From: Gaiella occulta
Lineage (GTDB): Bacteria > Actinomycetota > Thermoleophilia > Gaiellales > Gaiellaceae
DNA: 64,000 bases
Direction of reading: 5' to 3'
NCBI RefSeq assembly: GCF_003351045.1
Contig: NZ_QQZY01000005.1
Coordinates: 124,001-188,000, forward strand
Within the stretch, counting starts at the first letter, position 1; the number at the start of each line of letters is the position of its first letter. Below the pieces are notes generated by a model. It worked only from the letters and a program-made list of their open reading frames with translations. It was not told the origin of the DNA and made no database searches. The translations under genes and the position numbers were made by a program. This document shows, piece by piece, positions 25,462 through 40,040 of this stretch.

Positions 25462-26574
25462 ATGAGGAGTCGTTGGAGCATCGGCGCGGCACTCGCCGTC
25501 ATGGCGGTCGCGGCGCTCACGTTCGTCTCGCTCGGATCGGCGAAACCGGCCTCGGCGAAGGTGGACAAGGTGACGCTGCAGCTCAAGTGGGTGGCGCAGG
25601 CGCAGTTCGCCGGCTACTACGCGGCGGCGGCGAAGGGCTACTACAAGCAGTTCGGCCTCGACGTCACGATCAAGCCGGGCGGCCCCGACATCACGCCGGA
25701 GCAGGTCGTCGCCTCCGGCCAGGCCGAGTTCGGCATCGACTGGCTGCCGTCGCTGCTCGCGACGCGCGACAAGGGCGGGGACATCGTCAACATCGCCCAG
25801 GTGTTCAGGCGCTCGGGCATGACGGAGCTGACCTGGAAGGACAGCGGCATCACGACCGTGGCCCAGATGAAGGGCAAGAAGGTCGGCGTGTGGTGCTGCG
25901 GCAACGAGAACGAGCTGTTCGCCGCGCTCGTCAAGAACGGGCTCAACCCGAAGAAGGCGAGCGACGTCAAGATCATCAACCAGCCGTTCGACATGAACCT
26001 GTTCCTGCAGCGCAAGGTCGACGCCGCCGCGGCGATGACCTACAACGAGCTGGCGCAGGTGCTCGAGACGAAGAACCCGAAGACGGGCAAGCTCTACACG
26101 CTCGCCGACTTGAACGTGATCACGATGGAGAAGGCCGGCACGGCGATGCTCGAGGATGGGATCTTCGCCACGGGCGACTGGCTCAAGGACCCGAACAACG
26201 TCGACATCGCGAAGCGCTTCGTCGCGGCGTCCCTGAAGGGCTGGGCGTACTGCCGCGACAACCTCGCGGCCTGCACGGCGATCGTGCTCAAGAACGGCAC
26301 GCTGCTCGGCAAGGGCCACCAGACGTGGCAGATGAACGAGATCAACAAGCTCGTCTGGCCCTCCCCCGGCGGTGTCGGGGTGATGGACCCGGCGGCGTTC
26401 ACGCGCACGGCGAAGATCGCGCAGCAGTTCAAGGTGATCACGAAGGCCCCGCAGGGCGCCTATCGCACCGACATCGCAAAGGGCGCGCTCGCGCTCCTGA
26501 AGAAGCAGGGTGTCAACGTCGTCGGCGCCGGCTACAAGCCCGCCGTCGTCAAGGTCACCCCGGGCGGCAAGTAG
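25462..26574 (+). CDS. NMT1/THI5-type ABC substrate-binding protein
   Basis: The 370-residue exported protein has a Sec signal (RSRW, hydrophobic residues about 8-27, cleavage near AKPASA). The mature part starts VTLQLKWVAQAQFAGYYAAAAKGYYKQFGLDV, the hallmark of NMT1/THI5-like (PF09084) proteins. Relatives bind thiamin pyrimidine precursors, riboflavin or sulfonates. KKVGVWCCGNENELF marks the ligand-loop region. A GGAGGAGG ribosome-binding site precedes ATG 25462. Given the dihydropyrimidinase downstream, a pyrimidine or hydantoin ligand is my inference. A strong hairpin follows the stop. Confidence 0.88.
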   Translation: MRSRWSIGAALAVMAVAALTFVSLGSAKPASAKVDKVTLQLKWVAQAQFAGYYAAAAKGYYKQFGLDVTIKPGGPDITPEQVVASGQAEFGIDWLPSLLATRDKGGDIVNIAQVFRRSGMTELTWKDSGITTVAQMKGKKVGVWCCGNENELFAALVKNGLNPKKASDVKIINQPFDMNLFLQRKVDAAAAMTYNELAQVLETKNPKTGKLYTLADLNVITMEKAGTAMLEDGIFATGDWLKDPNNVDIAKRFVAASLKGWAYCRDNLAACTAIVLKNGTLLGKGHQTWQMNEINKLVWPSPGGVGVMDPAAFTRTAKIAQQFKVITKAPQGAYRTDIAKGALALLKKQGVNVVGAGYKPAVVKVTPGGK

Positions 26575-26587
26575 CCCGATCGACCAC

Positions 26588-26616
26588 GAGCCCCGGGCCG
26601 TCGCGGCCCGGGGCTC
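26588..26616 (+). terminator. 12-bp GC hairpin after binding-protein gene
   Basis: GAGCCCCGGGCC (26588-26599) and GGCCCGGGGCTC (26605-26616) form a perfect stem with a GTCGC loop, followed by CCCTTCC. It may partly terminate or stabilise the binding-protein message, which usually needs higher expression, before the dihydropyrimidinase gene 24 bases on. Confidence 0.6.
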
Positions 26617-26639
26617 CCCTTCCGGCGAAAGGAGGCCCG

Positions 26640-28031
26640 GTGTCCGTTCTCATCAAGGGCGGTCGCATCGTCACGGCGGCCGACAGCACCGTCGGCGACG
26701 TCTACATCGAGGGGGAGCGCGTCTCCCGCATCGGGACGTCCCTCGAGGACGACGCCGACGTCGTCATCGACGCGACGGGGAAGCTCGTGCTCCCGGGCGC
26801 GATCGACCCCCACACCCACCTCGACATGCCGTTCGGCGGCACGGTCACCATCGACGACTTCACCTCCGGGCAGACGGCGGCAGCGTTCGGAGGCACCACC
26901 TGCCACGTCGACTTCTGCATCCAGGCCAGGGGCCAGTCGTTCACCGACGCGCTCGCCGCCTGGCACGAGAAGCGGGAGGGCAGGGCGATCATCGACAACG
27001 GCTTCCACATCGCCGTCACCGACCTGGACGAAGGCGGCTCGCTCGAGGAGCTCGCGACCCTGCCCGAGCAGGGCGTGACCTCGTACAAGCTGTTCATGGC
27101 CTACAAGGGCGCACTCATGGTCGACGACGAGACGCTGTTCCGGACGATGGAGGTCGCCGCACGCACGGGCGCCCTCGTGATGGTGCACGCGGAGAACGGC
27201 GACGCGATCGACGTGCTCGTGCGGGAGGCGCTCGCCGCCGGCAACAGCGCGCCCGTGTACCACGCGCTGACGCGCCCGCCCGAGCTCGAGGGCGAGGCGA
27301 CGAACCGGGCCATCCAGCTCGCACGCGTCGCCGGCGCGCCGCTGTACGTCGTGCACGTGTCGTGCAAGGAGGCCGTGCACCCGATCGCCAAGGCCCGCCG
27401 GGCCGGCTGGGACGTGTGGGGGGAGACCTGCACCCAGTACTTCTTCATCGACCAGAGCTATCTCGAGCGGCCGGACTTCGAAGGCGCCAAGTACGTGTAC
27501 ACGCCGCCGCCGCGCCCGCGGGAGAACCAGCAGGTGCTCTGGGACGCGGTGCGCACCGACGTGCTCTCGGCCATCTCCACCGACCACTGCGCGTTCCTGT
27601 GGGACGGGCAGAAGACGATGGGCAAGGACGACTTCTCGAAGATCCCGAACGGAGGGCCGGGGCTCGAGAACCGGCTCCACATGATCCACGAGTTCGGCGT
27701 CCGCGTCGGGCGAATCTCGCTCAACCGCATGGTCGAGCTGCTGGCGACGAACCCCGCCAAGCTCTTCGGCCTCTATCCGCGCAAGGGCACGATCGCCCCG
27801 GGCTCCGACGCGGACATCGTGATCTTCGACCCGAGCCGCAGGAAGACGATCACCGCGGCCGGCCAGCACTCGAAGTCGGACTACAACCTGTTCGAGGGCG
27901 TCGAGGTGACGGGCGACGTCGACACGACATTGATCCGCGGCACCGTCGTCGTCGACGGCGGCGAGCTCAAGGTGGATCCGGGCTTCGGGCAATTCGTACG
28001 GCGGGCGCGGTTCGGCGAGGAGTTGCAGTAG
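26640..28031 (+). CDS. Dihydropyrimidinase (D-hydantoinase family)
   Basis: The 463-residue amidohydrolase opens the ring of 5,6-dihydrouracil or hydantoins to N-carbamoyl amino acids. The binuclear zinc site is complete: H58 and H60 in DPHTHLD, carboxylated K150 in SYKLFMAYKG, H183 in MVHAEN, H239 in YVVHVS and D315 in STDHCAF. The Tyr of FMAYKG is the usual substrate-contact residue. The C-terminus has GSDADIVIFDPSRRKTI and SDYNLFEG, both typical of dihydropyrimidinases. GTG 26640 is preceded by AAAGGAGG. It lies between an importer and a class III aminotransferase, which fits pyrimidine catabolism; allantoinase is unlikely. Confidence 0.93.
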   Translation: MSVLIKGGRIVTAADSTVGDVYIEGERVSRIGTSLEDDADVVIDATGKLVLPGAIDPHTHLDMPFGGTVTIDDFTSGQTAAAFGGTTCHVDFCIQARGQSFTDALAAWHEKREGRAIIDNGFHIAVTDLDEGGSLEELATLPEQGVTSYKLFMAYKGALMVDDETLFRTMEVAARTGALVMVHAENGDAIDVLVREALAAGNSAPVYHALTRPPELEGEATNRAIQLARVAGAPLYVVHVSCKEAVHPIAKARRAGWDVWGETCTQYFFIDQSYLERPDFEGAKYVYTPPPRPRENQQVLWDAVRTDVLSAISTDHCAFLWDGQKTMGKDDFSKIPNGGPGLENRLHMIHEFGVRVGRISLNRMVELLATNPAKLFGLYPRKGTIAPGSDADIVIFDPSRRKTITAAGQHSKSDYNLFEGVEVTGDVDTTLIRGTVVVDGGELKVDPGFGQFVRRARFGEELQ

Positions 28032-28042
28032 CCTTGCTGCAA

Positions 28043-28093
28043 GATCGGGGATCCTCGAGCGGGGATCCTCGATCGCGCAGATCCCTGAAGGAG
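28043..28093 (+). repeat. Dispersed hairpin element, copy B
   Basis: GATCGGGGATCC (28043-28054) pairs with GGATCCTCGATC (28063-28074) through 12 positions including one G-T. The tag TCGCGCAGATCCCTGAAGGAG follows at 28073-28093. It lies 12 bases after the dihydropyrimidinase stop and could terminate it. The tag matches copy A at 17501-17520 in reverse. Within the hairpin CGGGGATCCTCGA is directly repeated (28046-28058, 28060-28072). The rest of the 259-base gap up to 28291 holds only the promoter signal of the aminotransferase. Confidence 0.5.
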
Positions 28094-28254
28094 ACGCGCC
28101 CGCGCGCCTCTCCCGGCGGTCGTCGCCGGCTCCGCACACGCGCTGTCGCGGCGTCGGCCGTTCGTTACCGCCCCTACGACTTCCGGGTCGAACGTCGCGG
28201 GAGGGCGGGCTTGCGGCCGTTGCGCCACGAGCCGTGCCGATCCAGCCGCCGCGG

Positions 28255-28260
28255 TACGAT
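28255..28260 (+). promoter_or_regulatory. -10 hexamer TACGAT for aminotransferase gene
   Basis: TACGAT lies 30 bases before the GTG at 28291, and a Shine-Dalgarno AAGGAGG (28279-28285) lies between them, so this message would have a short leader. No good -35 is visible. Confidence 0.3.
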
Positions 28261-28290
28261 CGCCTCATACCGACGATCAAGGAGGCGCGC

Positions 28291-29661
28291 GTGGCGACAA
28301 CCGAGACCGATCCCCGCACCATCGACCCGAATCTCGGCGCCCAGATCGTCGCCGACGCCAGGGAGCACGTCCTCTACTCCTGGTCCGTCCAGAGCGCGAT
28401 CAACCCCATTCCCGTCGCGGGCGCCGAGGGCCGCCATTTCTGGGACTACGACGGCAAGCGCTACCTCGACTTCGCCTCGCAGCTCGTCAACGTCAACATC
28501 GGCCACCAGCATCCGAAGATCATCCAGGCGATCAAGGACCAGGCGGACAAGCTGTGCACGATCGGGCCGCCGATGGCCAACGAGTCACGCTCGCAGCTCG
28601 GACGCATGCTCGCCGAGGTGACCCCGGGCGACCTGTCGGTGTCGTTCTTCACCAACGGCGGCACCGAGGCGAACGAGAACGCGGTCAAGCTCGCGCGCCT
28701 GGTCACCGGGCGCCACAAGATCATCGCGCGCTACCGCTCCTACCACGGCGCCACGCACGGGGCCGTCACGCTCACCGGCGACCCGCGCCGCTGGGCGGTC
28801 GAGCCGGGCATGGCGGGCGTCGTGCGTGCCTTCGATCCGTACACCTACCGCTGCCCCGCCGGCCATCCGGATCCGTGCCCCGTCTGCTCGGGCGCCCCGC
28901 ATCTGGAGGAGATCCTCGCCTACGAGGGCGCCCACACGGTGGCGGCGATCATCCTGGAGACGGTCACCGGCACGAACGGCATCATCGTCCCGCCGGACGG
29001 CTACCTGCAGTCCGTGCGCGAGGTGTGCGACCGGCACGGCATCCTGCTCATCCTCGACGAGGTGATGGCCGGCTTCGGCCGCACCGGCAAGTGGTTCGCG
29101 TGCGAGCACTGGGATGTCGTCCCCGACATCCTCTGCGTCGCGAAGGGCATCAACTCGGGCTATGTGCCGCTCGGCGCCATGATCGCCCGCGGCGAGATCA
29201 TCGACCAGGTGCGCGACCGCTTCTTCCCCGGCGGCCTCACCTACGCCGGTCATCCGCTTGCGTGCGCGTCCGCGGTTGCCTCGATCGAGGCGTTTCGCGA
29301 GGAGGGCGTTGTCGAGAACGCGGCAGCGATGGGCGACTACTTCCGTGAGGCGCTCGGTCGCCTGCAGGAGCGGCACCCGTCGATCGGCGAGGTGCGTGGC
29401 CTCGGCTGTTTCTGGGGTATCGAGCTCGTCCGCGACCGCGAGACGAAGGAGATGCTCGTTCCCTTCAACGCGTCGGGCGAGGCGGCGGCTCCGGTCTCCC
29501 GCGTGGCGAAGGCGGCGCTCGAGCGCGGGCTCTATCTGATGACCCACTGGAACGTCGTCATGGTCGTGCCGCCGCTGACGATCACGCGCGAGGAGGCCGA
29601 GGAGGGGATCGCGATCCTCGACGACGTGCTCGCGATCGCCGACGAGTACTACCAGGAATAG
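28291..29661 (+). CDS. Class III PLP aminotransferase (probable beta-alanine aminotransferase)
   Basis: The 456-residue fold-type I transaminase has FFTNGGTEANENAVKLAR, YRSYHGATHGA, D256 in LILDEVMAGFGRTGKW, Schiff-base K285 in CVAKGINSGYVPLGA and GGLTYAGHPLACA. A cysteine-rich insert CPAGHPDPCPVC occurs at about residues 188-199. Omega-amino acid:pyruvate transaminases of this class remove the amino group of beta-alanine, which would complete uracil breakdown to malonate semialdehyde. GTG 28291 has a good AAGGAGG site. The last codons differ from the duplicate at 35221: DEYYQE here versus DEYVA there, and this copy lacks the terminator found after the duplicate, so its 3' end looks altered. 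Confidence 0.9.
   Translation: MATTETDPRTIDPNLGAQIVADAREHVLYSWSVQSAINPIPVAGAEGRHFWDYDGKRYLDFASQLVNVNIGHQHPKIIQAIKDQADKLCTIGPPMANESRSQLGRMLAEVTPGDLSVSFFTNGGTEANENAVKLARLVTGRHKIIARYRSYHGATHGAVTLTGDPRRWAVEPGMAGVVRAFDPYTYRCPAGHPDPCPVCSGAPHLEEILAYEGAHTVAAIILETVTGTNGIIVPPDGYLQSVREVCDRHGILLILDEVMAGFGRTGKWFACEHWDVVPDILCVAKGINSGYVPLGAMIARGEIIDQVRDRFFPGGLTYAGHPLACASAVASIEAFREEGVVENAAAMGDYFREALGRLQERHPSIGEVRGLGCFWGIELVRDRETKEMLVPFNASGEAAAPVSRVAKAALERGLYLMTHWNVVMVVPPLTITREEAEEGIAILDDVLAIADEYYQE
29055..29649 (+). repeat. 595-bp direct repeat, left copy
   Basis: This stretch of the aminotransferase gene (codon 255/256 to near the end) recurs at 35221-35815 with one difference, A at 29600 against C at 35766 (Glu to Ala). 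The identity is at the DNA level across the whole length. Confidence 0.97.
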
Positions 29662-29680
29662 ACGAGTACTACCAGGAATA
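29641..29680 (+). repeat. Perfect 20-bp tandem duplication at aminotransferase stop
   Basis: GACGAGTACTACCAGGAATA occurs twice head to tail (29641-29660 and 29661-29680). The first unit holds the last codons and, with the next base, the TAG stop. It marks the left edge of the inserted segment. Confidence 0.97.
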
Positions 29681-29706
29681 GCGGGACGGCCCGATCGGGC
29701 GCACGC

Positions 29707-30648
29707 CTACGGGACGATCACGAGCTTGCGGCCGGCCCCTTCCTCCTGACGACGCCAGGCGTCCGCGATGCCGTCGAGCGGGACGCACTCGACCTCGATC
29801 ACGATCCTGCCGGCGACGGCATGGTCGACCAGGCGGCGGAAGTGCTCGGCGATCACGTCAAGCGGGACGGCAAAGCTCGAGTAGCCGAGGATTTCAAGCT
29901 GCTTTCCCCGCACCGCTGCCGACGTGAGGGAAGCGGCGGCACCCGCCGACTGACCCAGGTTGACGATCCGCGCCCCTGGCGCCGCGGCTTCGGCCGCCGC
30001 GACCGCGGGCTCGCCCCACAGCGGGTCGATCACGAGCTGCGGCCCTTCACCACCACACGCTTCCCGCAGCGCCGCCGCGAGGTCGCCGTGCGCATCGAGC
30101 TTCACCGTGACGTCGGCGCCTGCCTCGAACGCCCGCTCCAGCGCCGCCTCGCTGCGGCCCGCGGCAACGACGCGCCCGGCGCCGAGGAGCTTCGCGCCCT
30201 GAACGGCCACAAGTCCTGCGGTGCCGGTTGCACCGAGCACGAGCACGGTCTCGCCCTCCCGGACGGGAGAGCGCCAGGCGACCGGAAGCCAGCCGGCGAG
30301 CCCGGCGATCCCGAGTGCTGCTGCGACGGCGGGATCCGCACCGGTCGGGACCGGGACGACGAGAGCGCCAGCCGAAGCGAGCGCCGCCATCGTCCCGTCT
30401 CGGCTCACGCCGAGCCCGCCGCCGTGCGTCCACACGAGCTCGCCCGACCCACGCAGGCGGCCGACGCACTCGCAGCCCGGTACGAAAGGTAGCGGCGGAT
30501 ACCCGCCGTAGAACCGCCCGCTGCCGACGGCGATGTCGATCGGATTCAGCGGCGCCGCGAGCACCTCGACCAGCGTCTCCGCCGCAGGATCGGGCGCCTC
30601 GCCCATCGTGGGCGGCCGCCCGAGCTCTGTTATCTGCGCCGCTCGCAC
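29707..30648 (-). CDS. MDR-family quinone oxidoreductase-like protein
   Basis: The 313-residue protein belongs to the medium-chain dehydrogenase/reductase superfamily, zinc-independent quinone-oxidoreductase branch. It has the N-terminal GroES-like half with LVEVLAAPLNPIDIAVGSG and FVPGCECVGRL, and a Rossmann half with VLVLGATGTAGLVAVQGAKLLGAGRVVAAGR. Catalytic-zinc cysteines are absent. I chose GTG 30648, eight bases after the binding-protein stop, with GGGAAGG upstream, rather than an ATG inside that gene. It is the last gene of the leftward ABC cluster and may oxidise or reduce the imported compound; substrate unknown. Confidence 0.82.
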   Translation of the reverse strand: MRAAQITELGRPPTMGEAPDPAAETLVEVLAAPLNPIDIAVGSGRFYGGYPPLPFVPGCECVGRLRGSGELVWTHGGGLGVSRDGTMAALASAGALVVPVPTGADPAVAAALGIAGLAGWLPVAWRSPVREGETVLVLGATGTAGLVAVQGAKLLGAGRVVAAGRSEAALERAFEAGADVTVKLDAHGDLAAALREACGGEGPQLVIDPLWGEPAVAAAEAAAPGARIVNLGQSAGAAASLTSAAVRGKQLEILGYSSFAVPLDVIAEHFRRLVDHAVAGRIVIEVECVPLDGIADAWRRQEEGAGRKLVIVP

Positions 30649-30656
30649 CGCCGCGG

Positions 30657-32060
30657 TCAGACCTTCCCCTGTGCGCGCCACTTCCGGAAGATCTCCTTGA
30701 TCTGGCGGTCGTAGGTGAGCGCGGCGTCATCCGGTGTCCGTTTGCCCTGCGCGACCTCTGCGAACATCTGTGGGATCAGGAACTTGTTGAACATCTCGTC
30801 GATGGCGGCGTTCGAGGTGCCGGGGTAGCCGACGTTCTTCGTGTACTTGTCGGCGATCTCCGCCAGCACCGTGTACTTCCCGGCCGGCTTTGCGATCGGA
30901 TCCCGCTCGACGCGGCGTTTGATGTTGGGCACCGACCTCGGCCACGTCGGGAAGTTGTAGAACTTCGAGTTCTCGAACGCGCCGACGTACTTCGTCTCGA
31001 GGTCGGCGAGGAACTTCTTTGCCATCTTCTTGTTCTTGGCGAACTTCCAGATCACGTAGCAGCCCATCACGTGCTCGAGCCCGATGCGGCCATTCGGCCC
31101 GCTCGGGATCGGGAGCAGCTCGATCTTTGCCGCGAGATCCGGGTTGAGGAGCTCGGCGCTGCGGGTGATCGAGATCGCGTTCATTGCGAACGAGAGCCGT
31201 CCGGCGAGCATGGCCTGGTTGTTCGAGGCGGGCGTCCACGCGAAGATCTCGTCCGACATCCCCTGGTCGTACAGCGCTTTGCCGAACTTGAGTGCCTCGC
31301 GCGTTGCCTTCGAGTTGAGCACGACCTGGTTCCTGTCGTTCTGGATGAACGAGCCGAAGCACATCATCAGGGCCATCAGGGCCATGTTCGAGTCGAGCTC
31401 GTTCGACATGCCGATCCCGACCGGATTGCCCATCGCCTTCAGCTTGGGCGCTGCCTTGAGCACGTTGTCCCAGCTCGTCGGCTTGAGCCCGACCTCGCCC
31501 CACAGGTCGGTGCGGTAGTTGGCGGGATCGGGCACGTAGTTGTCTGCGAAGGCGAAGTACTTCTTCGTCTTCGGGTTGTAGGTGCTGCGGAAGGCGAGAT
31601 CGTTCATCTTGCCTCGCTTGCGCGTGACCTCCTCGACGATCTCCTTGTGGTCGATCACCTGATCCTCGTAGGCGGCCGGCGGCGCGAGGAAGAAGAAGAT
31701 GTCGTGACCGCTCTGGGCGGCAACCTCGGCGGCCGCGCGAGCGGGGATATCGGTGGCGCTGATGTGGTCGACGGTCACCTCGGTGTCGTTCGCCGCGCCC
31801 CACCGCTTTATGTAGATGTTGTCGAACCACTTGTCGTACGCGGGCACGAAGTGGCTCCACTGGATGATCCGGAGTGTGTACTTCGCCTCCCTGCCCATGA
31901 ACCGGGCCGGACCTGCGACTGCGGTCTTCGCGCCCATGCCAGCGGCGACCACGGCGGCCGCGCCGATACTCGCGTGACGGATCAGCTCTCGCCGGGTCGT
32001 ACCCCCCCTTCCCTGGCCCTCGCTGCGGGCCGAGCCGGGAACGCGATTCGATGTGGCCAT
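30657..32060 (-). CDS. CUT1-type ABC substrate-binding protein with Tat signal
   Basis: The 467-residue protein is an extracellular solute-binding protein (family 1 type). Its N-terminus has a twin-arginine signal: TTRRELIRHASIGAAAVVAAGM with cleavage near AVAGPA, so it is exported folded by Tat. The mature part holds YTLRIIQWSHFVPAYDKWFDN, YVPDPANYRTDLWGEVGLKPTSWDNVL and DPDLAAKIELLPIPSGPNGR-like segments typical of sugar binders. AAGGAGGAAGG precedes ATG 32060. It heads the leftward operon with two permeases upstream in the same direction. The ligand is unknown; a carbohydrate or polyol is likely from the family. Confidence 0.88.
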   Translation of the reverse strand: MATSNRVPGSARSEGQGRGGTTRRELIRHASIGAAAVVAAGMGAKTAVAGPARFMGREAKYTLRIIQWSHFVPAYDKWFDNIYIKRWGAANDTEVTVDHISATDIPARAAAEVAAQSGHDIFFFLAPPAAYEDQVIDHKEIVEEVTRKRGKMNDLAFRSTYNPKTKKYFAFADNYVPDPANYRTDLWGEVGLKPTSWDNVLKAAPKLKAMGNPVGIGMSNELDSNMALMALMMCFGSFIQNDRNQVVLNSKATREALKFGKALYDQGMSDEIFAWTPASNNQAMLAGRLSFAMNAISITRSAELLNPDLAAKIELLPIPSGPNGRIGLEHVMGCYVIWKFAKNKKMAKKFLADLETKYVGAFENSKFYNFPTWPRSVPNIKRRVERDPIAKPAGKYTVLAEIADKYTKNVGYPGTSNAAIDEMFNKFLIPQMFAEVAQGKRTPDDAALTYDRQIKEIFRKWRAQGKV

Positions 32061-32098
32061 GACTCCCTTCCTCCTTGGTCGTTGGCGGTCGGTATCGG

Positions 32099-32941
32099 CT
32101 AGCGGAAGGCCCCGCCGGTGAATCCTGCGATGAAACGATCGAGGAACGTGTTGTAGAGCAGCGCGAGCGGGATCGACGGGATCAGTGTCGCCGCCATCAG
32201 CGCGCCCCAGAAGAAGACATCACCGCGGATCAGCTCCGTGTAGATGCCCGTCGAGATCGTCTTCGACGAAGAGTTGGTGATGAAGGCGAGCGCGTACACG
32301 AACTCGTTCGCGCAGAGCGAGAACGAGAAGATCACGACGGTGAGGATCCCGGGCAGCGAGATCGGGAACACGACGTGCAGGAGCGACCGCACGCGGGAGG
32401 CGCCGTCGACGAGCGCCGCGTCCTCGAGCTCACGCGGGATCGACTTGAAGAAGCCCATCAGCAGCCACGTTGCGAACGGGATCGTGAAGGACGGGTAGAC
32501 GAGTATGAGCGACCAGAGACTGTCCTGCAGGCCGAGTTCGGCGATCAGGCGCGAGAGCGGAAGGAAGAGGAGCGTCGGCGGCACGAGGTAGACGAGGAAG
32601 ATGCCGACGCCGAGGCTCTGACCCCAACGCCCGGAGAGGCGGGCGAGCGCGTAGCCGGCCGGCAGCGAGACGAGCAGCGTGAAGATGACGACCGTCGCGC
32701 CGACGAGCGCCGTGTTGCCGAGCCAACGGAGGTAGTCGGTCTGCTCGAACAGGAACCGCACGTTGGCGAGGGTCGGCGAGCCCTGGGTGAATCCGAACGG
32801 GTTGTTCTTGGTGTTGTAGAGATCCCCCTCCGTTTTCAGCGCCGTCCAGAGCATCCAGTAGAAGGGAAAGGCGAGCACGATCGCGAACGGCCCGACGACC
32901 ATGTAGGTGAGCAGGTTCTCGCGTGTTCGGCGCGACGGCAT
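32099..32941 (-). CDS. CUT1 ABC permease, MalG type
   Basis: The 280-residue membrane protein has six helices, a FPFYWMLWTALKTEGDL N-terminal signature and the EAA loop EDAALVDGASRVRSLLHVVFPISLPG. These are typical of MalG/UgpE-type subunits of sugar importers. ATG 32941 overlaps the stop of the MalF-type permease by one base (TGATG). It ends 38 bases before the binding-protein gene. It works with the MalF-type partner and the divergent ATPase. Confidence 0.9.
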   Translation of the reverse strand: MPSRRTRENLLTYMVVGPFAIVLAFPFYWMLWTALKTEGDLYNTKNNPFGFTQGSPTLANVRFLFEQTDYLRWLGNTALVGATVVIFTLLVSLPAGYALARLSGRWGQSLGVGIFLVYLVPPTLLFLPLSRLIAELGLQDSLWSLILVYPSFTIPFATWLLMGFFKSIPRELEDAALVDGASRVRSLLHVVFPISLPGILTVVIFSFSLCANEFVYALAFITNSSSKTISTGIYTELIRGDVFFWGALMAATLIPSIPLALLYNTFLDRFIAGFTGGAFR

Positions 32942-33867
32942 CACGTCACCTCGACCCTGCGGGCGAAGACGAGCATGAGCACGGTCACGAGCGCGAGCAC
33001 CGGCAGCAAGTAGAGCGCGATCGCCGCACCCGCGCCGAGCGAGCCGGAACCGATGCCGGTCTGGAACGCCCACATCGGCAGCGTCTGCGTCGAGTTGAAG
33101 GGCCCGCCGCGCGTGAGGATGTAGACGACGGCCATATCGGTTGCCGTGAAGACGATCCCGAACAGGACGGCGATCGTGGCGATCGGGAGCTGCAGCGGCA
33201 GCGTTACGTACCAAAGCTTCTTCAGGCCGGTCGCGCCGTCGACCCGGGCCGCGTCGTTGACCTCGGTGGGGATCGAGGCGAGGCCGGCGATCATGATCAC
33301 GGTGGCGAACGGGAGCAGCCGCCAGGCGTGCACTGTCGTGATCGCGGCGAGCGCGAGCGTCGGGTCGCCGAGCCACTGCGGCGGGTTGAAGGTATCGACG
33401 AGGCTGAGGCTCTTCAGCACCCAGTTCACGACCGAGAAGAGCGAGTCGAAGATCCAGAGGAAGCCGATCGTCGAGAGCGCGACCGGCGCCGCCCACGGCA
33501 GCAGGATGAGGAAGCGTAGGAACCATTTGCCCCTGAACGGGCGGATCAGGAAGTGCGCGAGAATCGAGGCGCCCACGACGATGATCGCGTTTGCGAGCAG
33601 CGTGAAGACGATCGTGTTCCGAAATGCCGTGCGGAAGTTCGGGTCGCTCCACTGGCTCGTGAAGTTGTCGAGCCCGATGAAGTCACCGGTGAGCGACCCG
33701 GCGGTGGCGTCCGTGAGGCTCAGGTAGATCGAGAGCCCGAGCGGCGCTCCCACGAGCAGGACGATGAAGATGATCGCCGGTGAGAGTAGCGCCGGCCCGA
33801 GGAAGCGCCGCTGCTCGAGCAGGTCTCGCCGGCGCTTCCTTCTGGGATAGCCGGCAGCGGTCTCCAT
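32941..33867 (-). CDS. CUT1 ABC permease, MalF type
   Basis: The 308-residue protein has a basic N-terminus (RRKRRRDLLEQRR), about six helices and the EAA loop EVNDAARVDGATGLKKLWYVTLPLQLP. GLDNFTSQWSDPNFRTAFRNTIVFT is a characteristic segment of MalF/UgpA subunits. It is the first gene of the leftward operon, facing the ATPase gene across a 79-base divergent region that contains palindromic sequence. Confidence 0.9.
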   Translation of the reverse strand: METAAGYPRRKRRRDLLEQRRFLGPALLSPAIIFIVLLVGAPLGLSIYLSLTDATAGSLTGDFIGLDNFTSQWSDPNFRTAFRNTIVFTLLANAIIVVGASILAHFLIRPFRGKWFLRFLILLPWAAPVALSTIGFLWIFDSLFSVVNWVLKSLSLVDTFNPPQWLGDPTLALAAITTVHAWRLLPFATVIMIAGLASIPTEVNDAARVDGATGLKKLWYVTLPLQLPIATIAVLFGIVFTATDMAVVYILTRGGPFNSTQTLPMWAFQTGIGSGSLGAGAAIALYLLPVLALVTVLMLVFARRVEVT

Positions 33868-33876
33868 GTCGGCGAT

Positions 33877-33893
33877 TCAAACACCTTGTTTCA
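33877..33893. promoter_or_regulatory. Palindromic operator candidate between divergent ABC genes
   Basis: AAACACCTTGTTT (33879-33891) is a perfect 5-bp inverted repeat with a 3-base centre, extended with one mismatch to TCAAACACCTTGTTTCA. A second pair, CAGCAT (33892-33897) and ATGCTG (33916-33921), is nearby. LacI-family sugar regulators use palindromes of this general form. No regulator gene is in the segment. Confidence 0.35.
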
Positions 33894-33933
33894 GCATGCA
33901 CAAGAGCGGCTGGAAATGCTGCAAGCGAGCCGG

Positions 33934-33939
33934 TAGGGT
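33934..33939 (+). promoter_or_regulatory. -10 hexamer TAGGGT, leaderless start of ATPase gene
   Basis: TAGGGT ends seven bases before GTG 33947, with no Shine-Dalgarno sequence. Confidence 0.4.
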
Positions 33940-33946
33940 CCGAGCC

Positions 33947-35113
33947 GTGGCGGAGATCACGCTCGACCGGCTTGCGAAGGTGTACCCGGACGGCACGCGG
34001 GCCGTCGTTGGTCTCGATATGGAGGTCGCGGACGGCGAGTTCGTCGTCTTTGTCGGCCCGTCGGGATGCGGCAAGACCTCGGCGCTGCGCATGATCGCGG
34101 GGCTCGAGGAGATCACGGAGGGCACCGTTACGATCGGCGGCGAGGTCGTGAACGAGTTGCCGCCGAAGAACCGCGACGTCGCCATGGTGTTCCAGAACTA
34201 CGCGCTCTACCCGCACATGTCGGTGTTCGACAACATGGGTTTCGCCCTCAAGATGCGCGGCTTCGAGAGGGGCGAGATCGCTCGCCGCGTAAACGACGCC
34301 GCGAAGGCGCTTGGGCTCGTCGAGGTGCTGAGGAAGCGGCCGCGCACTCTCTCGGGCGGGCAGCGCCAGCGGGTGGCGATGGGCCGCGCGATCGTCCGGG
34401 AGCCGCAGGCGTTCCTGATGGACGAGCCGCTCTCGAACCTGGACGCGAAGCTGCGCGTGCAGATGCGAGCGGAAATCGCGCGCATCCAGCGCTCGCTCGG
34501 GACGACCACGATCTACGTCACCCACGATCAGAGCGAGGCGATGACGCTCGGCGACCGCGTGGCGGTGATGCGCCGCGGCGAACTGCAGCAGCTCGACCCA
34601 CCACAGCGGCTCTACGAGGAGCCGGTGAACCTGTTCGTGGCCGAGTTTATCGGCTCGCCTGCGATGAACCTCGTGGAGGCGGTGCTCGCGTGGGAAAACG
34701 GCGCTGCCAGGGTTCGCTTTGGCGAGCATGAGCTGCCGTTGGACGCCGAGACGCTCACGCGGCGCCCGGGTCTCGCGTCGTACGACGGAAGGCGTCTCGC
34801 GCTCGGCATCCGCCCCGAAGACCTTGGCGACGCGGCGTTGGAAGGGGTGCCCGAAGACCGGCGGATCCCCGTCACCATCGATCTTCGCGAGGACATGGGC
34901 GCCGAGGTCTTCCTACACTTCGGCGTTGACGCGACCGCGGTGGAGACGGAGGATGTGAAGGAGGCTCAGGAGGACGACGTCGCTCAGGGGCTTCGTTTCA
35001 TCGCTCGCGTGGCGCGCGAGAGTCGGGCGCGCGAGGGGGAGCGCATCGATCTCTCGATCGACACGAGGCGGCTGCGCTTCTTCGATCTCGAGACGGGTCA
35101 GGCGATTCTCTAG
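33947..35113 (+). CDS. Sugar ABC transporter ATPase (UgpC/MalK type)
   Basis: The 388-residue ATPase has Walker A GPSGCGKTS, Q-loop VFQNYALYPHMSV, signature LSGGQRQRVAMGRA, Walker B FLMDEPLSNLDAKLR, switch histidine in VTHDQSEAM, and a C-terminal TOBE/MalK regulatory domain (about residues 240-388) with GIRPEDLG and EDMGAEVFLHFGV. An acidic insert of about 20 residues (ETEDVKEAQEDDVAQ) interrupts the TOBE region. It is divergent from the permeases and binding protein and completes the importer. The C-terminal FDLETGQAIL is a normal family end, so the gene is intact at the right edge of the segment. Confidence 0.92.
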   Translation: MAEITLDRLAKVYPDGTRAVVGLDMEVADGEFVVFVGPSGCGKTSALRMIAGLEEITEGTVTIGGEVVNELPPKNRDVAMVFQNYALYPHMSVFDNMGFALKMRGFERGEIARRVNDAAKALGLVEVLRKRPRTLSGGQRQRVAMGRAIVREPQAFLMDEPLSNLDAKLRVQMRAEIARIQRSLGTTTIYVTHDQSEAMTLGDRVAVMRRGELQQLDPPQRLYEEPVNLFVAEFIGSPAMNLVEAVLAWENGAARVRFGEHELPLDAETLTRRPGLASYDGRRLALGIRPEDLGDAALEGVPEDRRIPVTIDLREDMGAEVFLHFGVDATAVETEDVKEAQEDDVAQGLRFIARVARESRAREGERIDLSIDTRRLRFFDLETGQAIL

Positions 35114-35142
35114 GGCGCCCGAAACCTCAACCCGCCCCGGTA

Positions 35143-35215
35143 CGACGAACGCCCACGCCTGCCACAGCAGCACCGGCAGCACGAGCGCGCCGAGCGTGAC
35201 GAAGAGGCGGTGGCG
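35143..35215 (-). pseudogene. tatC remnant (two joined fragments)
   Basis: Two tatC pieces are fused. Bases 35143-35180 equal 36340-36377 of the intact gene, encoding LLWQAWAFV. Bases 35181-35215 equal 36531-36565 with one difference, encoding LRHRLFVTLGA. The 153 bases between them in the real gene are missing. The remnant joins directly to the aminotransferase duplicate at 35221 at a place where tatC and the aminotransferase gene share about 15 of 20 bases. It shows that a tatC copy once stood here. Confidence 0.85.
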
Positions 35216-35220
35216 TAGCC

Positions 35221-35824
35221 CGACGAGGTGATGGCCGGCTTCGGCCGCACCGGCAAGTGGTTCGCGTGCGAGCACTGGGATGTCGTCCCCGACATCCTCT
35301 GCGTCGCGAAGGGCATCAACTCGGGCTATGTGCCGCTCGGCGCCATGATCGCCCGCGGCGAGATCATCGACCAGGTGCGCGACCGCTTCTTCCCCGGCGG
35401 CCTCACCTACGCCGGTCATCCGCTTGCGTGCGCGTCCGCGGTTGCCTCGATCGAGGCGTTTCGCGAGGAGGGCGTTGTCGAGAACGCGGCAGCGATGGGC
35501 GACTACTTCCGTGAGGCGCTCGGTCGCCTGCAGGAGCGGCACCCGTCGATCGGCGAGGTGCGTGGCCTCGGCTGTTTCTGGGGTATCGAGCTCGTCCGCG
35601 ACCGCGAGACGAAGGAGATGCTCGTTCCCTTCAACGCGTCGGGCGAGGCGGCGGCTCCGGTCTCCCGCGTGGCGAAGGCGGCGCTCGAGCGCGGGCTCTA
35701 TCTGATGACCCACTGGAACGTCGTCATGGTCGTGCCGCCGCTGACGATCACGCGCGAGGAGGCCGCGGAGGGGATCGCGATCCTCGACGACGTGCTCGCG
35801 ATCGCCGACGAGTACGTGGCCTGA
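35221..35824 (+). pseudogene. 5'-truncated aminotransferase duplicate
   Basis: This is the 3' 44% of the class III aminotransferase (from D256 on), 594 of 595 bases identical to 29055-29649. It retains the Schiff-base lysine segment but lacks the whole N-terminal domain and the TNGGTEAN phosphate-binding region, so it cannot be a working transaminase. An in-frame GTG-ATG at 35228 could allow translation of 198 residues. It ends DEYVA and is followed by a strong hairpin, which looks like the original 3' end of the gene. Confidence 0.92.
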
Positions 35825-35827
35825 GCC

Positions 35828-35859
35828 CGGTGCCGGGGCGAGGTCGCGCCCCGGCACCG
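35828..35859. terminator. 13-bp hairpin between aminotransferase copy and tatC
   Basis: CGGTGCCGGGGCG (35828-35840) pairs perfectly with CGCCCCGGCACCG (35847-35859) around AGGTCG. It starts four bases after the stop at 35824 and lies between convergent genes, so it can terminate both. The full-length aminotransferase gene lacks an equivalent. Confidence 0.65.
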
Positions 35860-35869
35860 CTCATGCCCG

Positions 35870-36640
35870 CTACACGCCCTCTGCGAGTGCGTGCGGCGCG
35901 GCGGCGGCGCGGCGCTCCATCAGAGCGGCGAGCCAGATCGACGTCTCGTAGAGCGCGAGCAGCGGCGTCACCTCGAGAGCGAGCGAGACAGGATCGACGG
36001 TGGGGAGCACGATCGCGAACGTCAGCATCGCCACGTAGCCGACGCGGCGGTTGCGGCGCAGCTGGCGCGAGCTGACGACGCCCAGGCGCACCAGTCCGAG
36101 CACCAGCACGGGGAGCTCGAAGGCGATGCCGCTGGCGAGCAGGCCCATGGCGGCGAAGCCGAAGTAGGAGCTCGCGCGAAGCTGCACGTCGTACAGGTGG
36201 GTGTCGAAGGTGGTGAGGAAGTCGAGCGCGCGCGGCAGCACCACGACGTAGGCGAACAGCGACCCCGCCGCGAAGAGCGCGGTGCCGAGCGCGACGAGCG
36301 CGCCGATCGTGCGTCGTGTCGCCCGGTCGACGGCGGGCGCGACGAACGCCCACGCCTGCCACAGCAGCACCGGCAGCGCGAGCGCGAGCGCTGCCACCAC
36401 GCTGACCTTCACGGAGACCGTGAACGGCTCGGTGACGCCGAGCGTCACGAGACGGCGTCCGTCCGGCAGCGGCTCCCGCAGCGCCGCGACGAGACGGCCG
36501 TGGAACGCGAACGCGAGCGCGAAGGCGGGCACGAACGCGCCGAGCGTGACGAAGAGGCGGTGGCGGAGCTCGCCGAGATGATCGACGAGCTCCGCCTCCT
36601 CTCCTTCTCCGAGGCGCCTGGGAATCAGGCGAGCGAGCAC
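35870..36640 (-). CDS. tatC: Sec-independent translocase TatC
   Basis: The 256-residue, six-helix protein is the receptor core of the Tat pathway, recognising twin-arginine signals. It has VDHLGELRHRLFVTLGAF at the N-terminus, VTEPFTVSVKVSVVAAL, LPVLLWQAWAFVAPAV, YFGFAAMGLLASGIAFELPVLVLGLVRLGVV and LTFAIVLPTVDPVSL. The start is GTG 36640, three bases after the tatA stop. The C-terminal tail is Ala-rich. It exports folded proteins such as the Tat-signal binding protein at 30657-32060. Confidence 0.94.
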   Translation of the reverse strand: MLARLIPRRLGEGEEAELVDHLGELRHRLFVTLGAFVPAFALAFAFHGRLVAALREPLPDGRRLVTLGVTEPFTVSVKVSVVAALALALPVLLWQAWAFVAPAVDRATRRTIGALVALGTALFAAGSLFAYVVVLPRALDFLTTFDTHLYDVQLRASSYFGFAAMGLLASGIAFELPVLVLGLVRLGVVSSRQLRRNRRVGYVAMLTFAIVLPTVDPVSLALEVTPLLALYETSIWLAALMERRAAAAPHALAEGV

Positions 36641-36643
36641 GAC

Positions 36644-36847
36644 CTAGACGGTCTCGCGCTCGGCTGCCGCGACCGTCGACGGCAGGGCGTTGTCGTCAAC
36701 CGCGTCGCTGCCGGAGATGGTGTCCTTGAACTCCCGCATGCCTCTGCCGAGCTGGCGCCCCATCTCGGGGAGCTTCTTCGGCCCGAACACGAGCAGCAGC
36801 ACCATCAGCAGGATCAGCATCTCCCAGATCCCGATTCCGAACGGCAT
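36644..36847 (-). CDS. tatA: Twin-arginine translocase subunit TatA
   Basis: The 67-residue protein has a short N-terminus, one membrane helix (WEMLILLMVLLLVFG), the FGPKKLPEMGRQLGRGMREFK hinge-amphipathic helix region and a variable acidic tail. This is the classical TatA/E pattern; TatB is usually longer. It is transcribed just before tatC. No tatB-like gene is in the window. Confidence 0.93.
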   Translation of the reverse strand: MPFGIGIWEMLILLMVLLLVFGPKKLPEMGRQLGRGMREFKDTISGSDAVDDNALPSTVAAAERETV

Positions 36848-36854
36848 CGCAGAC

Positions 36855-37439
36855 CTAGCCGAGGAACGGGGTGACGGCCTTCGTCGCCTCGGCGGCGGTG
36901 AATGCCTTGGGGAACGCCGGGATGATCGGCTTGCCGGTGGCGATGTCGCTGAACACGCTCAGGTGCGACGCCTCGCTGGCGGCGATGGTCGCGGCGACAC
37001 CCTTGAGGTCGTTGGACTTCAGCGCGGTGACCGCGCCGAGGTAGGCGCCCACGAAGGCCGTCTCGAGCGCGACACCCGTCTTCGCGATGCTGAGCCGCGA
37101 GTCGAACGTGCCGGCCGGGTACGTGAACGACAGCCCCTTCGGGGTGGCCGACTTGAGCACGCCGGCGAGCGCCTTGTAGTGGGCCCGCTCGGAGATCCGC
37201 GCCTGGAACAGGTACTCGAGCTCGTTGCCCTTGAACTTCTTGCTGCCGATCGACTTCGAGTAGAAGTCGATCGCGAGCAGCTCCGCGGTGGCGGCGAGCT
37301 TCGCGATGTCGGCGTCGGCCGTGGCCGCACCGAACGCCTGGCCGCTGGTGGCGGCGAGCAGCGAGCCGCCCGCGACGAGCGCGATGCCGCCTCTGGCGCC
37401 TCGCGACAGGAACGCTGCGCGGCTGGTGGTCTCGGACAT
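36855..37439 (-). CDS. Exported ferritin-like domain protein
   Basis: The 194-residue protein has an N-terminal signal (SRAAFLSRGARGGIALVAGGSLLAATSG) and a four-helix ferritin-like domain. Helix motifs with acidic and histidine residues are AELLAIDFYSKS, EYLFQARISERAHYKAL, LETAFVGAYLGAV and IAASEASHLSVF. The signal resembles a Tat signal but lacks a true twin arginine. ATG 37439 has an AGGAGG ribosome-binding site; an ATG 11 codons upstream is less likely. Relatives (Ferritin_2 type) are often annotated as desiccation-related. The function is not known. It precedes tatA in the same direction. Confidence 0.75.
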   Translation of the reverse strand: MSETTSRAAFLSRGARGGIALVAGGSLLAATSGQAFGAATADADIAKLAATAELLAIDFYSKSIGSKKFKGNELEYLFQARISERAHYKALAGVLKSATPKGLSFTYPAGTFDSRLSIAKTGVALETAFVGAYLGAVTALKSNDLKGVAATIAASEASHLSVFSDIATGKPIIPAFPKAFTAAEATKAVTPFLG

Positions 37440-37535
37440 CTGGTGGAACCTCCTGGGTCGCGTGGTACGCATGGCCCGCGGGGTGCGAGCGACCCTGATT
37501 CGGCTCCGCCGTGCGACCGGTTCGGTCCCGCGCCG

Positions 37536-38318
37536 TCAGACGTCGGCGAGGAACGCGGTGACCGCGGCCGCCGTCTCCTCGAGCGCGTCCCACAGCAGCG
37601 TGTGGCCGCTCTCGACGTCGACGACACGCAGCAGGTCGCCGAGCGCGGCGCGGTGCGCGTCGAGCAGGTGGTCGTAGGTGACGTACGAGCGATTCCCGAG
37701 CACGAGCAGCGTCGGCACGCGCACCGACGAAAACGACGGCGGCGCGCTCGCCATCTCGCCGTAGGCCGCGATCACCGCCGCCTGGCTGTAGCGGTAGCGC
37801 CAGAGGCCGTCCTCCGACTGCACGACGTGCTCGCGCAGATCGGTCTCCACGAGCTCGCGCGGCGCGGTGCGGAGCCCGCTCTCCTCGAAGCGCCGCTCCA
37901 CCGCGTCCTCGAACGAGGCGTAGGCGCGCTCCTCGCGCCCGCTCTCGGCCGCGTAGAGGGCGACCGCCGGGTCGAGCGCGAGCGCCGGGTCGAGCAACAC
38001 GAGCCTGCGCACGAGCCCGGGATGGCGCGCGGCGAGCTCGAATGCGAGGCGGCCGCCGAAGGAGTGACCGATCCAGTCGGCAGGCTCGCGGCCGACGCTG
38101 TCGAGCACCGCGTCGACGTGGGCCTCGATGTCCCACGGCGGCTCGTAGGGCGAGGAGCCGTGACCGAGCAGGTCGGGAGCGAGCACGCGGAAGCGGCCCG
38201 CGAGCCACCCTTCGGCGAGACCGCGCGCATGGCCGCCGCACCCGGTGACGCCGTGCAGGTAGACGGCACGCGGCGCCTCCGGGTCGCCCCAGGCCTCGAC
38301 GTGCAGGGTCCGCTTCAC
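37536..38318 (-). CDS. Alpha/beta-fold hydrolase
   Basis: The 260-residue protein has the canonical alpha/beta hydrolase layout. The oxyanion region is VYLHGVTGCGG, the nucleophile elbow GHSFGG has S86, PDLLGHGSS follows the family pattern, and H239 in ESGHTLLWD completes the triad. The substrate is not predictable; esterase or haloperoxidase-like annotations are common. GTG 38318 overlaps the peroxiredoxin stop as GTGA, so the two are coupled, and an oxidative-stress role is possible. Confidence 0.85.
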   Translation of the reverse strand: MKRTLHVEAWGDPEAPRAVYLHGVTGCGGHARGLAEGWLAGRFRVLAPDLLGHGSSPYEPPWDIEAHVDAVLDSVGREPADWIGHSFGGRLAFELAARHPGLVRRLVLLDPALALDPAVALYAAESGREERAYASFEDAVERRFEESGLRTAPRELVETDLREHVVQSEDGLWRYRYSQAAVIAAYGEMASAPPSFSSVRVPTLLVLGNRSYVTYDHLLDAHRAALGDLLRVVDVESGHTLLWDALEETAAAVTAFLADV

Positions 38319-38785
38319 CCGCCGCCGCCGAGTGCGTCCAGGGACTCCGGCACCATCTCCGTGCGGCGGGTGTCGGCCTCCTTGACGAGAGACCAGATCA
38401 CGATCCCGTCCCTGTCGATGAGGAAGGTGCCGCGCACGGGCGCGCCCGTCCGCTCGTTGAAGACGCCGTAGGCGCGCGCCGCGGCGCCGTGCTCCCAGAA
38501 GTCGGAGGCGAAGGTGTAGGTGACGCCGAGCTCGTGCTTCCATGCCTGGCGAGACGCCGACGGGTCACACGAGACGAAGACGACGTCGGTCTCGGCGTTG
38601 TGGAACGACTCGAGATTCGCCTGCAGGTCGAGCGCCTCGTCGCGGCAGACGGGCGTCCAGGCGAACGGGTGGAAGACGAGCAGCACGTTGCGCCGGCCGC
38701 GGAAGTCCGCCAGCCGCACGCGTGGCCGGTCGGGGGCCTCCTCGAGGTCGAACTCCGGTGCCTGATCACCCGTCCCGACTGCCAT
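38315..38785 (-). CDS. Peroxiredoxin (AhpC/TSA family, AhpE-like)
   Basis: The 156-residue thioredoxin-fold protein reduces peroxides. The active-site loop reads FHPFAWTPVCRDE with T44 and peroxidatic C47, the PxxxTxxC motif; a second cysteine, C73, is in VFVSCDPSA. DFWEHGAAARAYGVFNERTGAPVRGTFLID is typical of AhpE and related actinobacterial peroxiredoxins. The start ATG 38785 lies 20 bases inside the rarA end. It is followed by the overlapping hydrolase gene. Confidence 0.9.
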   Translation of the reverse strand: MAVGTGDQAPEFDLEEAPDRPRVRLADFRGRRNVLLVFHPFAWTPVCRDEALDLQANLESFHNAETDVVFVSCDPSASRQAWKHELGVTYTFASDFWEHGAAARAYGVFNERTGAPVRGTFLIDRDGIVIWSLVKEADTRRTEMVPESLDALGGGG

Positions 38786-40040
38786 CCGTGCTCTCCTCTC
38801 CGTGTCCCGAGGGAACATAGTAGGTCCTGCCCTGGAGGCCGTCGGGAAGGTGATCGACGGCGAACCCGCGTGGATCGTCGTGCGGGTAGAGGTAGCCCTC
38901 GCCGTGGCCGCGCTCGCGCGCGCCGCGGTAGTGCGCGTCGCGCAGGGCGGCCGGCGGCGCCAGGATGCCTCGCTCGCGCACCTCGCCGCGCGCCGCCCAG
39001 ATCGCCCTGGCGGTCGCATTCGACTTCGGGGCGTTGGCGAGGTAGATCGCCGCCTGCGCGAGGTTGAGCTGCGCCTCGGGCAGGCCGACGTGCTCGAGCG
39101 CCTGGGCTGCCGCGACCGCGACCAGGAGCGCGCGCGGGTCGGCGTTGCCGACGTCTTCGGAGGCGAGGATGATCATGCGGCGGGCGACGAAGCGCGGATC
39201 CTCGCCGCCTTCGAGCATCGCGGCGAGATAGTAGACGGCAGCGTCGGGGTCGCCTCCGCGCATCGACTTGATGAAGGCGGAGACGATGTCGTAGTGCTGG
39301 TCGCCGGCGCGGTCGTAGCGCAGCGGGCGCTTGCGGGCGGCGTCGGCGACGTGCCGCTCCTCGAGCGGCGCACCCTCGGCCCGGGCCGTCTGCCAGGAGA
39401 GCTCGAGCGTGGCGAGCGCGCTGCGGGCGTCCCCTCCAGCGCGCCGTGCGATCGCCGCCGTCACCTCCGCCGGCAGCTCGATGCCGAGCTCGCGCGCGCC
39501 GCGCCCGATCACCGCCGCGACCTCGCCGTCGGAGAGCGGCTCCAGCTCGACGACCGTGCAGCGCGACAGCAACGCCGCGTTGACCTCGAAGTACGGGTTC
39601 TCGGTCGTGGCGCCGATGAGCGTCAGCAGGCCGCTCTCGACACCGGGCAGCAGCGCGTCCTGCTGCCCCTTGTTGAAGCGGTGGATCTCGTCGAGGAAGA
39701 GGATCGTGCGGGCGCCGTTGGCGCCGAGGCGCTCCCGCGCGCGCTGCAGCACCCCGCGGACGTCGTCGACGCGCGCCGACACCGCCGACAGCTCCTCGAA
39801 CGCCGCGCCCGTCGTCTCGGCGACGATGCGGGCGAGCGTCGTCTTGCCGACGCCGGGGGGGCCGTGGAGGATCATCGACGGCGGCCGGTCGCCCTCGATC
39901 GCAAGCCGCAACGCCGATCCCTCGGCGAGCACGTGCCGCTGGCCGACGAGCTCGTCCAGCGACCGGGGCCGCACGCGCTGCGGCAGCGGCGCCGTCTCGG
40001 CCTGCCGGGTGTGCGCCGCGTCGGCGAACAGATCTCCCAT
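38766..40040 (-). CDS. rarA: Replication-associated recombination protein A
   Basis: The 424-residue AAA+ ATPase of the RarA/MgsA/WRNIP1 family acts at stalled replication forks. It has PRSLDELVGQRHVL, Walker A GPPGVGKTT, Walker B LFLDEIHRF, sensor GATTENPYFEVN, arginine-finger region LLSRC, and the C-terminal MgsA domain with DIVSAFIKSMRGGDPDAAVYYLA and the HVGLPEAQLNLAQAAIYLA segment. I chose ATG 40040 so that GDLFADAA starts the protein; an upstream ATG lies within the divergent gene. Confidence 0.93.
   Translation of the reverse strand: MGDLFADAAHTRQAETAPLPQRVRPRSLDELVGQRHVLAEGSALRLAIEGDRPPSMILHGPPGVGKTTLARIVAETTGAAFEELSAVSARVDDVRGVLQRARERLGANGARTILFLDEIHRFNKGQQDALLPGVESGLLTLIGATTENPYFEVNAALLSRCTVVELEPLSDGEVAAVIGRGARELGIELPAEVTAAIARRAGGDARSALATLELSWQTARAEGAPLEERHVADAARKRPLRYDRAGDQHYDIVSAFIKSMRGGDPDAAVYYLAAMLEGGEDPRFVARRMIILASEDVGNADPRALLVAVAAAQALEHVGLPEAQLNLAQAAIYLANAPKSNATARAIWAARGEVRERGILAPPAALRDAHYRGARERGHGEGYLYPHDDPRGFAVDHLPDGLQGRTYYVPSGHGEESTDGSRDG

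Follow-up and report, generated by a model that had tools for sequence, protein, structure and literature searches.

A near-identical partial aminotransferase repeat flanks a possibly native ABC importer cassette in Gaiella occulta

The locus described here lies in a 64,000-nucleotide stretch of the Gaiella occulta genome (contig NZ_QQZY01000005.1, positions 124,001 to 188,000; hereafter the window), part of contig C5 of genome G000 in our comparison set. A class-III aminotransferase gene (AT) follows a dihydropyrimidinase gene on the left, and its 3' part recurs further right, next to tatC and tatA (Table 1). Between the two AT copies lie an oxidoreductase gene and the genes of an ABC importer: a solute-binding protein (SBP), two permeases (permG and permF) and an ATPase (malK). 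An initial annotation of the window had called this segment a full CUT1 sugar importer plus an oxidoreductase. That gene set holds, and a sugar is a putative substrate: CUT1 fits the UgpC-type ATPase, but the SBP matched no NCBIfam model. A literature search found no published report of this AT-importer locus, and the main text of the genome paper (PMC6741124) contains nothing on aminotransferase, twin-arginine or duplication.

Table 1. Features of the locus, in window coordinates
Feature	Position	Strand	Basis and remarks
Dihydropyrimidinase (D-hydantoinase), left anchor	26592..28031	+	TIGR02033 above cut-off; true start some codons inside the frame
Leader of full-length AT with TACGAT, a -10-like element	28241..28290	+	putative promoter role
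Full-length class-III aminotransferase (copy 1), 456 residues	28291..29661	+	PF00202; C-terminus ...DEYYQE
Repeat copy 1 (AT 3' part)	29055..29649	+	letter comparison
20-bp unit x2, exact tandem, spanning the copy 1 stop codon	29641..29680	+	repeat search
Zinc-type alcohol dehydrogenase / quinone-oxidoreductase-like protein	29707..30681	-	PF00107, PF08240
Extracellular solute-binding protein (SBP)	30657..32060	-	PF13416, PF01547; no NCBIfam model matched
ABC permease, MalG/UgpE/GlcU-like (permG)	32099..32941	-	PF00528; below NCBIfam cut-offs
ABC permease, UgpA/MalF-like (permF)	32941..33867	-	PF00528; below NCBIfam cut-offs
ABC ATPase, UgpC/MalK type (malK)	33947..35113	+	NF008653 above cut-off; open frame starts 33866
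Possible AT-leader remnant 3' of the ATPase gene (...CCGCCCCGGTACGA)	35127..35145	+	weak alignment to 28241-28257; CGA common with tatC piece
tatC scrap, piece A	35143..35178	+	= 36340-36375, 36/36 exact
tatC scrap, piece B	35179..35220	+	= 36529-36570 with 3 differences, each <=7 bp from a breakpoint
Repeat copy 2, 5'-truncated AT	35221..35815	+	open frame 35228-35824; C-terminus ...DEYVA
Strong hairpin 3' of copy 2	35818..35870	+	-41.8 kcal/mol, z -5.0
Intact tatC, source of the scrap	35870..36640	-	TIGR00945, PF00902
tatA	36644..36847	-	PF02416

The two copies of the repeat agree at 594 of 595 bp by letter comparison, as initially annotated, and differ only at 29600 (A) and 35766 (C). Identity breaks off sharply at both edges; the next best match elsewhere in the genome is 67% identical, and a repeat of this kind is far beyond chance. 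The copies are spaced 6,166 bp apart and share an exact stretch of 545 bp (29055-29599). At the differing position copy 1 encodes Glu, as do five of six congeners, the sixth (G004) encoding Asp; the Ala of copy 2 thus looks derived. The full-length copy 1 protein is 88-92% identical to those of the six congeners, and from copy 2 the first 764 bases are missing.

The 3' ends of the copies differ. Copy 1 had been described as having an altered end without a terminator, and both points were borne out: the 20-bp tandem duplication runs over its stop codon and no strong hairpin lies downstream (-11.2, z 0.6). A search of the window for the origin of this end returned two exact places, both at the end of AT, plus two that differ at 2 positions, and comparison with the oxidoreductase flanks of relatives gave a best score of 19 (from the longest flank, 1,320 bp; no control); neither yielded a source. 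For copy 2, a normal end and a strong terminator leading into tatC had been proposed. The strong hairpin is there, but it has no T run and so is not a classical intrinsic terminator, and a terminator scan listed nothing after the stop codon of either copy. At the other end of the gene, the upstream dihydropyrimidinase is kept in relatives, and the AT leaders of 15 relatives carry TACGAT (8), TAGGAT (4) or neither (3: G083, G018 and G093).

Between malK and copy 2 lies a scrap of tatC made of two collinear pieces, with 153 bp of tatC missing between them. The initial annotation had seen the scrap, though not its two-piece make-up, and had put the agreement at its fusion to AT at about 15 of 20 bases. 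The match is slightly lower, 13 of 20 bases from the breakpoint, a level reached by 2032 of the 1,016,704 possible tatC-AT pairs of 20-mers. Short homology is present at the novel junctions around the scrap, with 11 of the first 14 bases agreeing at the tatC-AT fusion and 9 of 11 shared at the junction inside the scrap; the flank-tatC junction shares CGA, though only if the flank is AT leader. Because piece A and the repeat are both nearly or fully identical to their counterparts (36/36 and 594/595), scrap and repeat both appear recent. We considered a scrap older than the repeat and dropped the idea, as each of its three differences is at most 7 bp from a breakpoint. Downstream of malK, 17 bases (35127-35143) weakly resemble the AT leader, with a score reached by 26 of 2878 random 60-nt segments. 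This stretch and the leader have GGTACGA in common, including TACGA of the -10-like TACGAT, a weak hint that an AT start may have been lost there.

The genome contains two tatC-tatA pairs, one in the window (35870-36847) and one at G000:C1:8108-9139 (L064). The two TatC proteins are 63% identical to each other. The C1 copy is nearer to the TatC of congener G001 (75%, against 61% for the window copy), which makes the window pair look like the additional one.

Neither a transposase or integrase nor a replication or transfer protein is found among the five Pfam-named proteins between the repeats, and the claim that no transposase was involved stands to that extent. Six inverted pairs of at least 20 nt, the length sought, occur in 26000-40000, none with arms at the segment ends. 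The segment is bounded by direct repeats of a host gene, as expected of a Campbell-type event. A check of GC content, suggested with the initial annotation, found the segment low (66.7%, compared with 70.3% in the left flank and 72.2% in the right); among 293 sliding segments of equal length, 8 are at or below 66.7%, and the 19 at or below 67.5% all start at 27601-31401, overlapping the cassette. The dip is shared, however, by the corresponding cassette of a relative, G093 (67.0%, against 71.2% on its right), and we dropped foreign origin by composition for that reason.

Gene orders were compared across 103 Gaiellaceae genomes, including the window's own; no other G. occulta genome is among them. 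Presence was called for permG in 29 genomes (E <= 1e-70), AT in 63 (E <= 1e-150), the oxidoreductase in 30 (E <= 1e-60) and tatC in 88 (E <= 1e-30). Absence of a gene from a contig means little, since many of these genomes are fragmented metagenome-assembled genomes (MAGs). Neighbouring genes are labelled by their Pfam matches. The label ab_hyd stands for an alpha/beta hydrolase, prx for an AhpC/TSA protein, m20 for an M20 peptidase, TDO for a tryptophan-dioxygenase match, mmsA for an aldehyde dehydrogenase and rarA for an AAA protein that has an MgsA_C domain; in the last two cases the name is narrower than the Pfam class and is presumed.

The closest parallel is G093, taken to be a MAG of Candidatus Gaiellasilicea maunaloa (L048/L068), from the same family but a different genus. 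Its order, mmsA-oxidoreductase-SBP-permG-permF-malK-AT-...-ab_hyd-prx-rarA-TDO-m20, lies in the same neighbourhood as the window. The cassette sits directly upstream of AT, with 9 bp from the malK stop to the AT start, in the orientation seen at copy 2. The likeness to the window thus covers genes, order and orientation from the oxidoreductase to the ATPase as well as the chromosomal surroundings; the difference is that the window has the full AT on the far side of the cassette and only the AT 3' part in the usual place. AT and permG occur within 20 kb on one contig in the window genome and in G093, G014 and G018, and in all three relatives AT is downstream of malK and points the same way; mmsA separates the two in G014 and G018, and no gene does in G093.

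The oxidoreductase end of the cassette also has counterparts. AT and the oxidoreductase are within 20 kb on one contig in the window genome, G004 and G093, and both relatives have AT on the side of the oxidoreductase that malK occupies in the window. An oxidoreductase of this family is present at the locus in two of the six congeners (G004 and G005), 0.2 and 1.3 kb from the dihydropyrimidinase, and G023 has the order dihydropyrimidinase-mmsA-oxidoreductase. In G024, a single-contig genome, AT and oxidoreductase are far apart; its order AT-tatC (partial match)-tatA-ferritin-like indicates that AT-tatC is an older neighbourhood. The tatC match beside AT in G024 covers residues 149-243 only. In G004 (L029 5632-9746), minus-strand open frames occupy the slot between oxidoreductase and AT, where G093 has the importer; one has a LuxR-family GerE domain and another an AAA_16 domain.

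A tree built from four cassette proteins pairs the window with G093 as sisters (0.994), G015 branching next (1.000). The rarA tree places G093 in a group with the window genus and the sister genus of the latter (0.999), but outside both (0.938), a place that fits vertical inheritance with losses. The same tree puts congeners G003-G005 with the sister genus (0.972). G015, a MAG that is 67% complete, is close by in the tree of cassette proteins but distant in that of rarA. The trees are compatible with vertical descent, and transfer between genera could also have produced them.

We infer the direction of change, the number of steps and the mechanism from these letters, junctions and gene orders, which are themselves observed. 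Our preferred explanation, to which we give a probability of about one half, is that the importer cassette is native to the locus and that, recently and in the G. occulta lineage, a local rearrangement duplicated AT past it. It draws on the malK-AT adjacency in relatives, together with the oxidoreductase beside the dihydropyrimidinase in two congeners, which suggest that copy 2 is the old AT. Copy 2 probably marks the former position, and the duplicate is probably the full-length gene to the left. The earlier order would have been dihydropyrimidinase-oxidoreductase-SBP-permease-permease-ATPase-aminotransferase-tatC-tatA. The rearrangement would have placed a full AT with its promoter left of the oxidoreductase, while the AT at the old site would have lost most of its leader and the first 764 bases (equivalent to about 28260-29054), the gap being filled with two short copies of adjacent tatC sequence. 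This could have happened by tandem duplication of the cassette-AT unit (giving the 6,166-bp spacing) followed by two deletions, or by a single chain of replication template switches at short homologies. The two routes fit equally well.

Several observations weigh against a native cassette. The chief of them is that in five genomes of the sister genus (G024, G083, G084, G085 and G092) the dihydropyrimidinase and AT lie 36-381 bp apart with no cassette, so copy 1 could hold the old AT position. More broadly, the slot between these two genes spans 36-6,984 bp in the 12 relatives that have both on one fetched contig; it holds the oxidoreductase in 1 and mmsA in 3, none of the six genes asked for in 8, and the whole cassette in none. 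The oxidoreductase was not found in the other four congeners at the threshold used, and none of the six shows the importer here; in G002 and G005 the permeases and AT are on different contigs, and the tree places these permeases far from those of the window. The sole relative with the full cassette at the locus, G093, is a MAG whose contig begins inside mmsA, leaving the left side unseen. Its own AT leader has no TACGAT-like element, and the AT tree joins it, weakly (0.738), to G014, G018, G033 and G034. In the window, a search of the spacer 28030-28291 found no traces of malK or the oxidoreductase. When the whole leader is used, the score of the possible leader remnant is reached by 164 of 2889 259-nt segments and 230 of 2000 shuffles. 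The native-cassette explanation also needs three distinct events, all recent, or some five template switches.

Because of the cassette-free order in the five sister-genus genomes, two explanations by insertion keep some probability. The initial annotation started from that order, dihydropyrimidinase-AT-tatC, and proposed that a unit of the AT 3' part and tatC was tandemly duplicated at short homology, after which an ABC segment from outside took the place of most of the first unit. What survives from that proposal is a recent local duplication joined at short homology. In favour of the model, the scrap pieces are collinear and in tatC orientation, as expected of a remnant, and the tatC/AT junction sits where those 11 of 14 bases agree. 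The replacement does not fare as well. An incoming segment would, by coincidence, have had to land next to an AT copy with the same position and orientation as the cassette of G093, and G004 and G005 already have an oxidoreductase of the same family at the locus. These comparisons do not support the view of the 5.5-kb segment as an insertion that added an importer, and we regard the full duplication-and-replacement model as very unlikely. Single-crossover (Campbell) integration, which we judge unlikely, would account for the AT-cassette-AT order, since direct repeats are the product of one crossover in the AT 3' part. The integrating circle, carrying oxidoreductase-ABC-malK-scrap-AT 3' part, would hold malK then AT, as in G093, and the altered end of copy 1 and hairpin end of copy 2 fit the same event. 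Such a circle must have formed in, or been received from, the same species, because its AT letters are 99.8% identical to the host's, and this counts against it. The five Pfam-named proteins of the segment include none for replication or transfer, and the scrap would still require separate events.

The repeat could also have misled the assembly. The genome paper (PMC6741124) describes MiSeq 2x300 reads assembled with SPAdes at 520-fold depth into 34 contigs (3,028,529 bp, N50 401,372 bp), and with reads of that length the 545-bp exact part of the repeat could have been miswired. The chromosome would then read dihydropyrimidinase-AT-tatC, the cassette and copy 2 forming a 6,166-bp circle, or the unit would be present more than once. 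The other wiring gives the order of G024, with the AT end followed by the hairpin. Yet a free circle without a replication protein is unlikely to persist by itself, miswiring at the repeat cannot produce the scrap junctions, and the published depth is high; we consider an assembly effect highly improbable. As the assembly is made from short reads, the 6,166-bp unit may nevertheless exist in excised or multiplied form, or as a mixture.

The locus is an ordinary kind of local rearrangement, well preserved. Complex duplications in starving E. coli have been read as repeated replication template switching (Lin et al., 2011; PMC3161906), and as described there they resemble this locus in combining duplications with other complex changes at one place. 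The E. coli case is a selected amplification at lac, whereas ours is an environmental isolate, unamplified in the assembly and known from sequence alone. Single-crossover integration and homology-facilitated illegitimate recombination, as treated in PMC3240628, offer a further likeness in homologous joining that leaves direct repeats, or an illegitimate join at the other end; here no donor is known, both repeat copies are host-like and the cassette appears native. According to the genome paper, neither mutS nor mutL was found in G. occulta (PMC6741124), and we suggest that their absence might ease joining at imperfect homologies. A more specific version of the native-cassette explanation, which we offer only as an unlikely conjecture, is that one burst of template switching in this host, reported to lack mutS and mutL, copied AT past the cassette and patched the old site with snippets of its neighbour, leaving a 6.2-kb importer unit that can now be excised or amplified. 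If so, excision at the 595-bp direct repeats would restore an AT with the hairpin-followed end.

The locus preserves a recent rearrangement that can still be read from its letters, in a family represented here mainly by MAGs. A caution comes with it: near-identical repeats on both sides of a segment are not in themselves a sign of insertion, and the relatives suggest that the flanking gene moved. The copy number of the importer could vary if the repeats recombine.

Two minor observations concern AT and its surroundings. The AT of G007 (L038 8847-10248) matches as two separate pieces, split near residue 335, and may be broken, either in the genome or in its assembly. The spacer between the dihydropyrimidinase and AT carries a dispersed repeat (window 28028-28118) with kin at G000:C2:519069-519158 (80%), C3:43673-43721 (88%) and C1:191-235 (82%).

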